Shown here piece by piece: positions 14,511 to 27,000 of a stretch of 64,000 nt of DNA; within the stretch, counting starts at the first letter, position 1, and each line of letters begins with the position of its first letter. The notes below the pieces were generated by a model, which worked only from the letters and a program-made list of their open reading frames with translations, was not told where the DNA came from and did no database searches. The stretch lies in NCBI GenBank assembly GCA_029717555.1, contig JAMDHS010000041.1, forward strand, positions 62,001-126,000, written 5' to 3'. Source of the DNA: Peribolospora baueri. Its lineage: Eukaryota; Basidiomycota; Peribolosporomycetes; Peribolosporales; Peribolosporaceae. The position numbers were made by a program, and so were the translations under genes.

Positions 14511-17500
14511 TCAAATAAGCTTCCTACCCTCGATACTGGGCGTGGCAGAAGCGCTTTGACGTTCTTCAGGGGTGAGCACGCCCTCCCCGCCCCTCCGCGC
14601 CTGGACAGTTGCGTCGGGGAGCCAAAAACGAGCTTCGGGGACCTCCTCCGGTGCAGCTGAGGAAGCGGGTGCGGGTGCGGCTGAGGCAGTTTGACCAGTC
14701 ATCTCAGCACCTGAAGGCTGAGTTGGTAGCTCGACCACTTTCGTCGAATCGGCGCGCGAAGCGGGCTGTTTGGCCACTCCATCGCGACCACGGGCACGGG
14801 TGTCAGCGCTGCCAACCGTAGGCGGTCTGTTCCCCGAAGGTCCAGCGGCCGAAGATCTAGACTGAAGGTCCTCCGAGGCAGCTCTTCGCGCCGGCATGCG
14901 GTTGCGCACCACCACGAAACTCTTCCCACCCGCCGGCGGCGCTGTGGTGGTGCCTATGCCCTCTTCGCCCTCTTCCTCTTTTCCATCCTCATCCCGCCCC
15001 TTGCCTCGAATGCCCAGACCGGCAGCGAGCTTGCCAAAAGTCCACGTCCAGCGCCTGTTCTTGCCGTCATCTCCCCACACACCGTCGCCATCGTCCTCGT
15101 CCTCATCGTCGTCCGTCCAAGAATCGGCCGAGTCCTTCCGAACCGACTTTGCAAGGCCAAACCATCCCTTGCTCTTGCCCTTGCCCTTGCCTCCACCTCC
15201 AACGTCCTCCTGCTGAACGTCGCCTTGGGCCCCAGTGGCGAGCGGCGCAGAGACAGCTGGAGAGAGCACCTGGCCTCCACTGTACCGTTGCGGATTCATC
15301 TCCGGGCTCCGTTGCGGGCTGCCAGACGGGAAAAACTCAATGATGGCGGTCTGGCTCCGCGGTCGCGGCCCGGGCACGACGCTCCTGCTCGCCACATGGG
15401 AACTGTCCGGGCGGTTGAACGGGATGATGCCCAGACCTCCCGCCGACGCAGAGTGAGCATGCTGACAGATCCTCCGATTGGGATCGGGAGGTCCAGGCAA
15501 AGGAACGTTGGATCGATAGAATGCCCCGGGCGATCGTCGCGCGGCGGACGAGGAGGGCGAATAGGGCGAGGTGTCCGTCGCGCGACCGCCGCCGATTCTC
15601 ACGAAGCCGGCCTTGGGGCTGCTGGGTGTCGTGCTTCTGCCGATGGGAGCATCGCCTGGGCCGGCGCCCCACGGGCTCGGTCCTCTCGGAGGTGGGGAAG
15701 GAGGCCCGCCTTGGTGAACAGGTATGTAGCCACCGTGGTTGCCCCATCCCGGCGTGGTTGGCGGCAATGCGGCCATGATGAAACCCTCATCGTGATCGTC
15801 GCTTCGGAGGTATGCTGAGTACGGTCCCGACGCGGCCATGTCGAGCGGATTGCGGTACATAGGGTCGTTGAGATAGCTGGTGAAGCTGGTCTGACGACTG
15901 TGGCTGATCGGAGCATGCGACACGGTCCCTCCGGGGGTGTTGACTGCGCTGCCGGTGGGGATGCCACCAGAGGGAGGGCGACCGACATCGCGGAGCATGA
16001 GCGTCTGCGTATTCACGCTTCCCGAGCGATTCAGAGCTTCTCGGCTCGCCCGACCGCCACCATTGTTCCGGTGCTGCTGCTCCTGACGCTTCTTGATGCC
16101 ACGAATCGCCCCACCGAGGCCAGCGACGCGGGGTGAAATGCGCTCATCGAACGGCACATGTCCGAATAGACGCACGAGGCCCTCGATGACCTTGAAGAAC
16201 AGCAACAAAAGGAAGAAGACGTATACAATGCCTTGGACCTGCGAGGAAAGGTTGCGTAAAGGCTCTTAGTGCGTGTGCGAAGAGTTTAGCGATCGACGGC
16301 GGAACTCATGCAGAAGTCCAACTCACCAGCAGCACGACGTAAGCGATCCAGCCGGCGCCCGTCGTCCCAATGCCAAGAGCAGGTGCGAGCAAGAGGACGA
16401 GAACGGCAGTGATGATCTTGCAGACGCAAATTCCAAAGCTGACCGGCCCCATGTTCGCTCCTTCCCCCCACGGAAGCCAAAGGCTCGTGGCGAGCGTCAT
16501 GCCGATCTCGAACGCGAGAAGGACGATGGACTGCGCGAGGCCGTATCTCTGCAGCGCGCCGATGACGATGCCGATGACGACGTCATACGATAGCGACACG
16601 AGGCCGAACAGTTGCGAGCCGGGGGCGTAGGTATTGTAAAGGGGCCCAAAGACGAGGAGGGTCCGCACGCTGTCGTAAAGACGATTGGACGGCGTGCGCG
16701 AGAGGCGCCAGATGAGAAAGGCGGGTATGAGAACGCCAAGGAAAGCGAGACTGAGAGCGGCTAAGGCGACGCTAAGCTTGGTGGCGACAGTGGTGGCGAG
16801 GGAGAGCTGGTAGGTGGAGAGGAGGACGATGGGGAGGTGAAAGAGGACGAGACATCGGGTAAGATTGCCAGCCATGGCACGCATGTGCGTGTCCGTGCTG
16901 CTGCTAAAAGTCACCGCCACGCTAGGGCCAGAAAGGGCGGCGGACCGGTAGGCGCCGCGTCGCGCGGCCCGTCGAGCGCGCCACTGCGGGAACCACAGAC
17001 TGCCCAGCCGTGTTCTTCCATTGTCGACGTCGTCCGACTCGTCCCCGTCTCCATCCGGACCATCGGCACGATCGCGCACCGGAGAAGCGGGATGGGCTTG
17101 TACGGACGGCTGAAGCAAGTCCGTGCCCGCGGTGCTTCCCTTGCTATGCACCACCGAGCCATGGACCGTTGAACCGGCCCTGCCCGAGGTCGGCCCAGCG
17201 GCGATGGCAGCCAGGCTCTTGGGAAGACCTTCTCCCGAACCTCCTACCTCCCTCCTACCCTTGGCGCCCCTGATCGCATCACCGATAAGATCTGCGGTCC
17301 ACGCCACGGCGCTGATGACGAGCACCGCGGCGACGATGATAAGCCAAACGGCCATGGCAGTACCGAAAAGGTCTTGCTTGCGCAAGCCAATGATCGCTGC
17401 CACGGATTCAAGGCCCGGTTGAGCGGAGCTCAGATGGAGGAGCTGCGAGGGTACTTGGGGATTGAGGTAGAGGGGCGAGGTGGGGTCAGAAATCTGATTG

Positions 17501-18899
17501 GCGAAGAGAGATGGTGGGGTGAAATTGGTTTGAAGAGTGAAATAACGATCGGACGAGGCTTGGGCACCTTGGACGAGCGTGACATCTGAAAACCAGACAG
17601 TTGACAACAAGCGCATATGAGTACACGAGACAGACAGAATCACCTATGCATGCCACACTGTTTGTACACACTCTCAAGGAGGCTCGCCCATGCGGCTTGC
17701 CTAAAGAACGGATCTGAAGGAGGACAGGGACAACGATCGAACGATGGCTTGAGCACCAGGTCTAGCGTAGAATTGGAAACGACCGCAGAGAAGGACGGAC
17801 GGACTCACATACGAATTCGGGCCACGAGACGCTGACAGAAGCGATGAGGAGCACCCATTGGGTATGGAAGATCACATCCCACGCACCGGGGGTGGCGAAC
17901 CTGAGCAGGCCCGGACTGGCAACGAGCTGCTCGCCGCTAATGGCTCCGAGCACCGTGGGTCCAATGGTGTCCCTCCACAGCGTCGGTCCGCTGCCCTCCC
18001 TCGCGCGGTTGCGGAAGGCGCGCGACCGAGAGGTGAGAGAGGTGATGGCGCGGCTCGAGAGGGCTAGGAAGAGGTAGCTCGCAGCGAGAGCTATCGGAAG
18101 GTAAAGGAAGAGATCGAAGTACCATTTGTCCGGGTAGTAGGGTGTCACGCCAAGGTTGTAGCATGCCAAGTAATTGGGAGGGTGGTTGGTATCCGTGACA
18201 CGCACTTGAGTCCACACCGTGCCAAGGGCGTAGCTGGACTGGAGCGGGATGACGGCACCGAACGCGACGTCTCCCGGGCCGTAGGGACATCCCGAGCCGG
18301 TGGAGTTTGTGATGGCCGTCGGATTGTCAGTGCCGCCCGGTATCGTCGACGTGGTGGGGTTTCGCACCGCTTGACAAAATTTGGAGTTGTTGGAAAAGAG
18401 GGAGAAGGAGAGGAGACTGCTGTCGAGTTGGAGTGTGACTGCGACCGTGGCGACGAGAGAGGTAACATGGTGAGCGACAGGGCAACGAACCGTATGCCGC
18501 CCTCTTGCGCGGAGCGGGCATCCGCAACAGGCACTCACCCAGGTAGTTGGTCCCGTCTGTGTTGTTGCTCTCTCCAGTCTGCTGGCTGCCCGTCACACCC
18601 ACACTCACGAGTCGCAACCCGTAAGGCGGTCCACTGGGCCCGCCGCCTCCCTGGTCGGGATCCAGAGTGCCATAGTAGGGGTCGAGCTGTGCGTAGACGG
18701 CAGAGATGTTGAAGAGCTCGTCCGAAGCGCCTGGGGGTGCTACGGAGGGTGGGCAGTTGTGAAAGGAGGAATAGTACTCCGAGGAGGGGCCAGAAGAGGG
18801 AAGGAAGGTGAGCGCGGCCTGGGCGTTCACCGAGGCGGCGAGGCGGGAAAGGAGAAGAAGAAGAGGGAAGGAGGAGGCAAAGGGCGATAGTGGGAGCAT
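14511..18899 (-). CDS. TRP-like channel / Flc-family membrane protein
   Basis: Four exons on minus: 18899-18539, 18438-17809, 17585-16327, 16238-14511; 1325 residues, all phases consistent. A signal peptide (PLLLLLSRLAASVNA) leads into an ML-like luminal domain (to ~residue 200, with N-glycosylation sequons and paired cysteines such as KFCQ and GCPYGPGDVAFG). The multi-pass TRP region follows, with about nine or ten hydrophobic segments up to YVFLLLLLFFKVIEGLVRLF. The order ML-like then TRP is typical of fungal Flc1-3 and Pkd2-like proteins, which act in calcium release, FAD handling at the ER, and wall integrity. The last ~560 residues are predicted cytosolic and disordered, rich in Ser, Pro and Gly, with an acidic run (DDDEDEDDGDG); this tail is long for the family. 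Start: the ATG that opens the signal peptide. Confidence 0.88.
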
Positions 18900-22844: not shown

Positions 22845-23728
22845 TCAAACCAGGCGACGGAAGATTCGGGGCGCGGCGCAGTTGTCGGCGCAGTGCATCA
22901 GGTGGACTATAATAACGGAGTCGCGTATGATGCGGAGGAAAAGTCAGCAACTTGCGCAGGATGTCTCGATGATGGTACCAGGCATTCAGTGTCGACTTAC
23001 AGCTGTGGCATGCGATTCAGAATCGTGAGCGAAAAGAGCATCCGAGGCGCGGTCAGCGGTCAATGCGCATTGAGAAAGCGAGCTTGCTTTAGAGAAATCG
23101 AGATCTATTCATCGATCGGATAGGTGTGCAGCTTCTGATAAAAACTCACAGCTCTTCGACGCAATCCTCTCCCTTGTAGCCTTGACCAGTCTCTACGCGC
23201 TTTTGGCACTCCTCGAAGTGGTGCTTGGCAGGAGCGCAAGGCTTGGAGTTCTCGCACTCTGTCGAGCGCAAGCAGCCGAGAGGAGGGTTGAGCGAAGAAA
23301 GTAAATCGATGGGAGACAGATGAGCGAGACAAGTTGATGATGCCAGTCAGATACTGCCTTCAGCTCTCGTCACAGCTCTCATGACCGATGAGAGCCGTAG
23401 CAACCAACGGACAAAGGAAGGCAGCAGGATAAGCTTCGCATCCACTCACCCTCGTGAATTGCCGGAGCAGGCTGACAGTGCGGGAAGAGAGAAAGGAGGG
23501 GATGATGATCAATGGCCATCCCACACCGATCGGAACGAGGCAAACCGCGAGCAGGCTCACGTCTTCAGGCTCCTCCTCCTCTTCCTCCTCCTCGTCTCCG
23601 GCCTCCTCGTCATCCTTGCCTTCGTCAGCGTGGGCGACGGGGAGCAAGCTCGAGAAAAAGCTAGACACGGATGAGAAGAGGGACTCGGACGCAGAGGCGT
23701 CGGCGGCGGTGGTGACGGAGGTCGACAT
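22845..23728 (-). CDS. QCR6: Cytochrome bc1 complex subunit 6 (hinge protein)
   Basis: Exons on minus: 23728-23561, 23471-23450, 23258-23150, a proposed 2-nt exon 23002-23001, and 22906-22845; 120 residues. The hinge protein sits on cytochrome c1 in complex III and helps it meet cytochrome c. Visible hallmarks are an uninterrupted acidic run (eight Glu before PED), then the twin CX9C-like helical hairpin with ECENSKPCAPAKHHFEEC, GEDCVEEL and FHLMHCADNCAAPR. The N-terminal ~35 residues are Ser-rich and hydrophobic in part, a likely targeting region. Joining GEDCVEEL to FHLMHC in frame is impossible with one GT-AG intron. It works with a 2-nt micro-exon (CT) between a 147-nt and a 94-nt intron, or with a single GA-AG intron ending the exon at 23148. 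Head to head with COG2 over 307 bp. Confidence 0.9.
23001..23002 (-). other. Proposed 2-nt micro-exon of QCR6
   Basis: On minus the local sequence reads GCCACAG, CT, GTAAGTC: a good 3' splice site, two bases, then a consensus donor. Including CT restores the frame between the exon ending at 23150 and the one starting at 22906, and yields Leu-Phe as the family expects. Each flanking intron has a CTGAC-type branch site upstream of its acceptor. Confidence 0.5.
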
Positions 23729-24035: not shown

Positions 24036-27000
24036 ATGTCCGTCCATGGGACTCCAGCCAAGGATCCCGCTAGAAGCGTCGATGACCTCCCCACCGAGCC
24101 CCTCGAGCTTCCCTTTGCTCCCGCACTCTCGCACTCTCACCCCCTCCTCGACCCCTCCCGATCTCCCATCTTCTCCGCCGATGACTTTCTCCTTTCCTTC
24201 CGACCCGCCAATGATCTCGGCACGATCAACACGGACTTGAAGAACTACTTGGCTTCACTCAAGGAGGAGCTCGTCCAGCTCATCAACGAGGACTATGTGG
24301 ACTTTATTGCTCTTGGCACGGGGCTCAAAGGAGAAGGGGAGCGCATAGAGCGGCTCCAGAAGGCGCTCAAGGCCGGTCAGACAGAAGCGAGCTTGACGGT
24401 GGGACGCTTCGCTCCGCGGTAGTTATCATTTTGGGTCGGCCAGTGCTGACCTGTGCGGTTTTGCTGGTACAGGAAGCACAACGGGCGCTTCGGACCGTGG
24501 AAAGCCAGGTGGAGAGAATTTTAGACGAGCGAGGCGTCGCTCGAGCTCAAAAGGTGGGCCACCTGGATGCACTTGTAGAAGCGGATGCATGCTTGCGCGC
24601 CGTGTCTAACCGTCGTGCCTCTACTCTTTATTGACAGACTAAGATGGACCTCTTGCTTCAACTGAACGACTCCGTAGCTCGCTGCGAGGCCCTCCTTCTC
24701 ATCCCGACTGCGTCGGAGGAGGAGGCAATTTCCGAGTCGGAGGAGGAGGACGTCGTCAGACGGCCACGGAAGAGCTCAGGTTTTGGGCTGGAGGGTGGTG
24801 ACACTCGTCGGTGAGCGCCAGGAATGTCGTATTTACTCTTGCTGCGTCGGCTGACTATATCTGTGCTCCTTTCCTCCATGCAGGCGGCTTTCTCACCGCC
24901 ATCCCAAAACCGGCTTACCACTTCCTCTTCCCCAACGCATCCAACGCGTCTCCGCCGAGCACTCACAGCTCACTTTCCTTGTCAAAAAGGCTCAAAGTGA
25001 TGGCCTCGGTGCCTTCGTGGGCGGGCTGCGAGGGAGGATCGACGAGATCGTCAACACGCTGCAGAGGGATTTGACCATTTTGCTTTCCGAGCTGCTTCGC
25101 GATGACGAGCAGGCGCTAGACCGGTTGAGCCCAATGCCCGCGGAAAGCGGCGGCAGTGGAACGCCGGAGGACAAGGAGAGGGCACGGTTCGAGTGGCTCA
25201 AAGAGTGCTTCTCGGTGTATTGTGCGATCGGAAAGCACAAGGAAGCCGAAGAGGTCGTCAAGAGAGAGATCGTCCAAGATTGGGTGCGGAAGGTGAGGTG
25301 AGCGGCTGCCTTCTCCATCGTCATTTGGTCCGGCGTCTTACATTTCTCTCCCTCCATTGCAGACCATTCACGCTGGTTCCCTCGCCGCGCCTCAGTCTCC
25401 ATTTGCATCGTCTGCCGTCAACCCGTCGGAATCCCCTTCACCGCCGCATGGGTCCTCCTCTAATCGTCGGCTAAAACCTCCCCCTCAGGTTGCAGAGGAT
25501 GGGGACGATCCTTTAGCAAGGCTTTATAACGAGATTCTCCTCTTCGTTTCAAGTCGATGCTCGACCGTCTGCGCTGCCGCTGACGAGATTGCGCAGTCGT
25601 CTCGATCGGGCCCGGAGCGGCGGGGGGAAACCGGAGACGGGTCGACGCAGGACGAAGGAGGTGAAGATGTGCTGGACGTGTTCACAAATGTCGTCTGGGC
25701 TCCCATCGCGGAGCGGTTGATGAACGAGCTAGGGCAGGTCATCTTTGTTGTCGGCAGGACCGAGGTGTTTCACAAGGTGCGCTGGGGCGCGACATGGGTT
25801 GTCCTCACTGCGGACCTTCAGCCACGACTAACATTTTTTGTCATTTGTCTATTTTTGCATCGTCCGACACCGTAGAACTACCTCCTAACGTCCTCCTTTC
25901 TCCGCCAATTCTGCTCCCTATGCCCCTCCCGAGCCTCGCTTGCCCGCTTCCAATCCCATCCGACATACCAAAACATGCTCAGGCGATTCCAATTACCCGT
26001 CTACTTTCAGATGCGTCTCCGCGAGATCGTCGGCGGGCTGGAGGAGCACTTGTGGACAGGTCGGGTGCAGGTGCAGGTCGCTGCTAGAGACCTTGGTTTT
26101 GGGTCGAGAGGCGGCGTGAACGTCGTCAGGGATGAGGGCGGGACTGGGCGGCAGGACGAAGCGCCGCGCTTCGAGGCTACGCGAGCCGTCGTGACTGCTT
26201 TACGGCGCTGCTGGGACGAAGGCGTCTGGCTCGAACCGATCGGTCACCGGTTCTGGAGGTTGACGCTACAGGTGAGCAGTCGGATTTCGATTGCGTTCTT
26301 CGCATGTTGGTTGGCTGGCCTTGGTGTGGTCTGGTGCGTTGGTCGGCTCTCTGACGAGGACTTTTCGGCTTTGCAGATTATCAGTCGCTATAAGACGTGG
26401 CTAGACGTAGCCCTTCCGGATTACCCACGAGGTCCTCCGCCGTCATCGTCACACCCCGGCTCGCGAACCGGTTCGAACACCGGAAGCGGCTACCCGTCCC
26501 GTCCTTCCACTCCTCAACTCGGTGGTGCTGCTGCCGGCGGTTCCGACGGAGAAGGCGGAGACGAGTCATTGCTGAGCCAGCTCGGCCTCGTCGCTGCCGA
26601 GGTGATATGGCTCGACAGGGAAGTCGCGCGCATATGGAAGGGCAACATGGAACCGAAACTCGTGGGCACATCGGGGGGTCACCGGACGGAAAGCGTCGTT
26701 GATGATGAGACGGTCGCACTTCAGAGTGAGCCGGCCTTGCCAATGGTATCCCGTGCGGTCGCCGACAGCTTTTGACCATCCTCCCCTTCTGCATCGATTC
26801 CACACCTGTGTTTAGATATACTACGCACTGCCGTCTCCCCCCTGCTGTCCTCCCTTCTTCCCTCCCTCTCCTTCCACATCCAACAGCTTCTCATTACCCG
26901 CTGCGCCGAGAACCTCCGCCCCGTCCGCTCTGTCCTCTCTCAACTGCGAGGCAGCGGCAGCAGCGGCGGCGTTCGCGGGCACAAGGATCAGCTCAAAGGG

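Follow-up and report, generated by a model that had tools for sequence, protein, structure and literature searches.

Can an exon of two nucleotides be a regular part of a core respiratory gene? The question is raised by a minus-strand gene in the window (the whole stretch of 64,000 nucleotides of Peribolospora baueri DNA that was analysed), for which a preliminary description had noted that an exon ending GAAGAGCT (at position 23150) and an exon starting TCCACCTGATG (at 22906) cannot be joined in frame by one GT-AG intron. Two models had been offered there: an exon of 2 nt, CT, lying between two introns, or a single intron with a GA donor. The frame problem itself, the motifs around it and the positions given for them were confirmed in the sequence. 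We asked how far each model holds when single introns and inserts over this region are tried, and when a second copy elsewhere in this genome is considered.

The QCR6 gene and its reading frame

On the evidence of profile and structure-database matches, the minus-strand gene is QCR6, which encodes the acidic hinge protein of complex III in the respiratory chain. With CT included, five exons yield a product of 120 residues, the C-terminal end of which is GEDCVEELFHLMHCADNCAAPRIFRRLV. This product matches the Pfam family UCR_hinge with 98 bits, against a curated cut-off of 27.2, over positions 1-64 of 65. In the PDB, 31 distinct sequences were matched at E<=0.001, nearly all of them named complex III subunit 6, QCR6 or bc1 complex, the best being 8q1b_F (cytochrome b-c1 complex subunit 6). 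Among the matches listed for these 31 sequences, EE[LF]F aligned without gaps to QCR6/UQCRH chains in five of five alignments.

Exon 1 (23728-23561, minus strand like all that follow in this gene; 168 nt) encodes the acidic N-terminal region and starts at a putative ATG, to which the reading frame and an LPVAHAD stretch common to the second copy both point. It is followed by an exon 2 of only 22 nt (23471-23450) and by exon 3 (23258-23150; 109 nt), which holds the bulk of the hinge domain and terminates in GAAGAGCT. Intron 3 (23149-23003; GTGAGT...CCACAG) separates exon 3 from the proposed exon 4, CT (23002-23001), and intron 4 (23000-22907; GTAAGT...TTATAG, the donor GTAAGT occupying 23000-22995) separates the latter from exon 5 (22906-22845; HLMHCADNCAAPRIFRRLV), the last, which has 62 nt including the stop and the start of which reads TCCACCTGATG. 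The intron lengths reported earlier, 147 and 94 nt, were verified. Diverging from QCR6 is a gene for COG2, an oligomeric Golgi complex subunit, with several introns (24036-26775, plus strand), for which a Pfam scan of two frames gave 55.9 bits to COG2_N and 86.3 bits to COG2_C. Downstream of QCR6, the open frame at 16306-17643 (minus strand) matches Pfam TRP, the domain of fungal TRP ion channels, with 85.3 bits; the next frame, at 17762-18538 (minus strand), gave no match in the Pfam scan.

Exon 3 breaks off after the second base of a codon (GAA GAG CT) and exon 5 starts with the last two bases of a codon (TC CAC CTG ATG); therefore, two bases are missing between them. CT would complete the Leu codon begun by exon 3 (CT+C) and provide the first base of the following Phe codon (T+TC), giving Glu-Glu-Leu-Phe-His. 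As the preliminary description had claimed, joining exon 3 directly to exon 5 loses the frame, the conserved hairpin and the stop: without CT, the product, shortened to 126 aa before scanning, matches UCR_hinge with 56.6 bits over 45 positions, the match ending at position 45, and in full the product runs beyond the normal stop.

To place these two bases, single introns and inserts were tried over the region. Firstly, 419 donor-acceptor pairs with GT-AG, GC-AG, GA-AG or AT-AC ends were tested as single introns, with donors from 30 nt inside exon 3 to 60 nt beyond it and acceptors reaching at most 30 nt into the last exon. Nine of the 419 get to the conserved C-terminus (APRIFRRLV) in frame, and CVEELFHL is kept intact by only one, a GA-AG intron at 23147-22907. 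The other eight delete hinge residues, two of them also adding foreign ones, and the lone in-frame GT-AG intron (23186-22907, donor GTCAAG) likewise loses hinge residues. Thus no single GT-AG intron of this trial joins these exons with the protein intact, and the earlier observation stands. Secondly, inserts of the form AG-(3n+2)-GT, 2-59 nt in length, were tested with the exon-3 donor and the last acceptor fixed and with neither intron shorter than 40 nt. The C-terminus is restored by a single one of these, CT at 23002-23001, with a perfect GTAAGT donor, and both introns beside it have canonical ends (GTGAGT...CAG and GTAAGT...TAG). That CT between CCACAG and GTAAGT restores the protein had also been proposed, and the match to 64 of 65 UCR_hinge positions mentioned above bears it out. 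Together, the single-intron, insert and Pfam trials indicate that inclusion of CT is required for the conserved protein in the window copy.

A second QCR6 copy with the same two bases

Two QCR6 copies were found in the genome, and both carry CT at the corresponding place. The second gene, on contig C92 (L001 2239-999, minus strand), was read by hand and has the same five-exon layout: exon 1 at L001 2239-1982, exon 2 at L001 1865-1844 (22 nt), exon 3 at L001 1613-1505 (109 nt), the proposed exon 4, CT, at L001 1200-1199 between ATAG and GTGAGT, and exon 5 at L001 1060-999 (62 nt), all on the minus strand. CT is preceded by CATGATAG and followed by GTGAGTGC, and the introns beside it read GTGAGT...TAG and GTGAGT...CAG. 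The acidic N-terminal region of this copy is longer, and the small exon 2 has equal length in both copies (window 23450-23471, minus strand; second copy as above).

In the second copy, 14 AG-(3n+2)-GT inserts reach the C-terminus; CT has the best donor match among them and alone yields EELFHLLHC without added residues. In the single-intron trial, 31 of 489 candidates reach the C-terminus, and all of these except the GA-AG intron at the end of exon 3 delete hinge residues or add foreign ones. Two GT-AG introns using exon 3's own donor are in frame and would insert 46 or 33 residues into the hinge, the first by retaining intron 4 wholly and the second by retaining it in part. Both were rejected, as they would disrupt the conserved hairpin and the window copy offers no equivalent. 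Given these in-frame GT-AG alternatives, the 2-nt exon is needed in the second copy only for an intact hinge, unlike in the window copy.

From ECENSK on, 47 of 57 residues are identical between the two copies, and their fourfold sites differ in 9 of 17 cases. Their four intron pairs give matches of 7 to 11 bases only (E 0.16 to 2.6); there is no convincing similarity between the introns otherwise, while AG-CT-GTRAGT stands in both. Since this motif is found in both copies amid almost completely changed sequence, the most economical explanation is that the 2-nt exon predates the QCR6 duplication and has been under selection since, and the retention of CT between introns diverged beyond recognition points the same way. 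As the copies come from one ancestor, this would be one origin kept twice, not an independent gain. The duplication may be specific to QCR6, with QCR7 appearing single: its family, PF02271, has two exon matches that lie 181 nt from each other on a single contig and were taken as one gene. On this apparent single-copy state of QCR7, a thin basis of one gene, the idea that the second copy came from a doubling of the whole genome was set aside.

How often would such a motif be present by chance? The 243-nt (window) and 444-nt (second copy) intervals were each subjected to 20,000 dinucleotide shuffles and the motif was sought in the interior; the resulting figures describe chance presence of the motif, not independent gain. 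AG-CT-GTRAGT was present in 1 of 20,000 shuffles for the window and in 5 of 20,000 for the second copy. When all letters that keep Leu-Phe were allowed (AG-NT-GTRAGT), the counts rose to 7 and 26 of 20,000, respectively, with inserts of 2, 5, 8, 11 or 14 nt before GTRAGT to 69 and 271 of 20,000, and with the loose form AG-NT-GTRNG to 147 and 563 of 20,000. Genome-wide (a draft assembly of 178 contigs and 22.1 Mb; GC 0.56-0.61), AGCTGTRAGT occurs 93 times on both strands, versus 122 for the backwards control, and one of the 93 occurrences is the exon-3 donor of the window QCR6 itself. Nothing in these counts suggests that the genome makes common use of CT exons of this form.

The splice signals around CT were also compared. 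All eight introns of the two QCR6 genes start with GTGAGC, GTGAGT or GTAAGT and end in AG. The CTGAC branch-like sites reported earlier are present in window introns 3 and 4, 50 nt and 37 nt before the acceptors, respectively. As an argument they are weak, because the second copy has no YTRAY at the corresponding acceptors: within 8-70 nt before the acceptor, YTRAY is absent from three of the eight introns, including introns 3 and 4 of the second copy. The acceptors preceding CT are weak in pyrimidines, with shares of 0.61 and 0.50 in the last 28 bases before AG, the lowest two of the eight (the others range from 0.64 to 0.89). Neither the missing YTRAY motifs nor these pyrimidine shares settle the matter.

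Proposed splicing route and alternative explanations

We estimate at roughly 0.9 the probability that QCR6 has five coding exons with a genuine, conserved 2-nt fourth exon, CT, and that the ordinary GT-AG introns flanking it are removed successively. The sequence of this exon, the need of the reading frame for it and its sharing between two gene copies are direct observations; that the transcript is spliced via CT, that the introns are removed successively and in what order, we infer. Only two bases would separate the acceptor of intron 3 from the donor of intron 4, and the binding sites at the two would overlap; an exon of this size could not accommodate the machinery of both splice sites simultaneously, so that the two introns would have to be removed one after the other. 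Either order would leave a normal second substrate. If the upstream intron is out first, the product would be GAGCTCT/GTAAGT, an ordinary exon end followed by a strong donor; if the downstream intron is out first, it would be CACAG/CTTCCAC, a normal exon start. Fungal introns are short and are spliced as they are transcribed, and for this reason removal of the upstream intron first would be the favoured order. The predicted mature junction is GAGCT-CT-TCCAC in the window (GAGCTCTTCCAC) and GAACT-CT-TTCAT in the second copy.

The alternative of a single GA-AG intron would remove everything in one step (GAGCTGT/GAGTTT...TATAG/TCCAC) and give an identical protein, with GAGCTGTTCCAC at the window junction and GAACTGTTTCAT at that of the second copy. 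This intron exists in frame as had been described, although its length is 241 nt and not 242. It has in its favour that it is the one single intron in the window trial to spare the protein, that it is in frame in the second copy too, and that GA-AG introns exist in some animals (PMC7072748, partial text). However, that it is also in frame in the second copy follows automatically, as any GTGAGT donor has GA at +3, and lends no support. A GA-AG intron would also bypass a consensus GT donor only two bases upstream. Furthermore, the GA-AG sites of Eurytemora and Oikopleura, as given in the same partial text, have AG upstream and A downstream, and the QCR6 sites, TGT/GAGTTT in the window and TGT/GAGTAT in the second copy, are unlike these. 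The U1 snRNA profile RF00003 had no match in this genome, nor in any of 14 controls, a result that speaks neither for nor against a GA-AG intron. Most importantly, a GA-AG intron leaves the AG-CT-GTRAGT of both QCR6 copies unexplained, and its presence in both makes this alternative, like an assembly error, unlikely; we consider it quite improbable. Thus, the two-model reading is supported, and the second copy favours the 2-nt exon.

A second alternative is that the two introns form a nested unit of the stwintron type, in which the upstream intron must be removed first and CT would be the remnant of a recursive splice site rather than an exon. Removal of the upstream intron would indeed put a strong donor, CT/GTAAGT, against exon 3, and stwintrons are numerous in some fungi (PMC12403724 and PMC9024468, partial texts). 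In a stwintron as defined in these texts, a splice element of the outer intron is split by the inner one; in the parse followed here for QCR6, two complete canonical introns lie with two bases between them, and we give this alternative a very slim chance. A sequencing or assembly error hiding a normal GT-AG intron or exon boundary, for which no support was found in this draft of 178 contigs, has a next to negligible probability, the same two bases being missing at the same place in two copies with unrelated introns on separate contigs.

The 2-nt exon therefore remains our preferred reading of the locus. A broader proposal can be put forward tentatively, at somewhat below even odds: the exon may be ancient and fixed in the QCR6 genes of a whole clade of fungi, long kept together with a compulsory splicing order, and assembly of complex III in these fungi may depend on its accurate use. 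We expect that standard annotation would probably be wrong at the end of the QCR6 protein, here and in relatives. If the 2-nt exon is real, few known exons would be as small as CT, which lies in a core respiratory gene, and it would offer a compact natural test of the spliceosome against an exon too short for both splice-site complexes.

Comparison with known tiny exons

A phrase search of the literature for a two-nucleotide exon returned no relevant title, most subscription journals being outside its scope, and among the matches listed for QCR6/UQCRH with microexon the word microexon was absent. Pattern searches for QCR6 relatives in prokaryote and virus contig collections gave 20 and 22 matches, respectively, none of which was confirmed. 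Exons of phenylalanine ammonia-lyase (PAL) from this genome matched several PAL chains with E-values close to one another (2e-13 to 1e-12), the two best being enzymes of red yeasts, and so gave no placement of the fungus; its many introns, its GC content and its genome size would suit a basidiomycete.

Tiny exons as a kind are already known from published 1-nt exons in plants and Fusarium, and the CT of QCR6 would be a further case. Exons of 2-5 bp have been reported in Arabidopsis, Drosophila and human (Volfovsky et al. 2003, as cited in the partial text of PMC12940212); this size class includes 2 bp, as in QCR6, but the hosts are non-fungal. The fungal stwintrons resemble the arrangement proposed for QCR6 in having two adjacent U2-type introns removed successively at one place, but they are nested, whereas the QCR6 introns are complete and CT would be left between them (PMC12403724 and PMC9024468, as above). 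In plants, APC11 and VPS55 contain one-nucleotide microexons supported by RNA-seq and RT-PCR (PMC8831610, partial text). As is proposed for CT, these are required by the frame, overlooked by annotation and long kept, and the VPS55 GTRAGT donor is conserved; they differ in host, in having one base and in their RNA-seq and RT-PCR evidence. A further likeness is with the CYP621A P450 genes of Fusarium, where a one-nucleotide exon is documented by 24 genes and RNA reads (PMC12940212, partial text). In both systems a tiny exon of a fungal gene sits in a conserved motif with an AG-N-GT layout, is common to related genes and was discovered through two good exons that could not be joined in frame. The CYP621A exon has one base, lies in a P450 gene and is backed by reads, whereas that of QCR6 has two bases, lies in a core respiratory gene and is predicted from the sequence of two gene copies.
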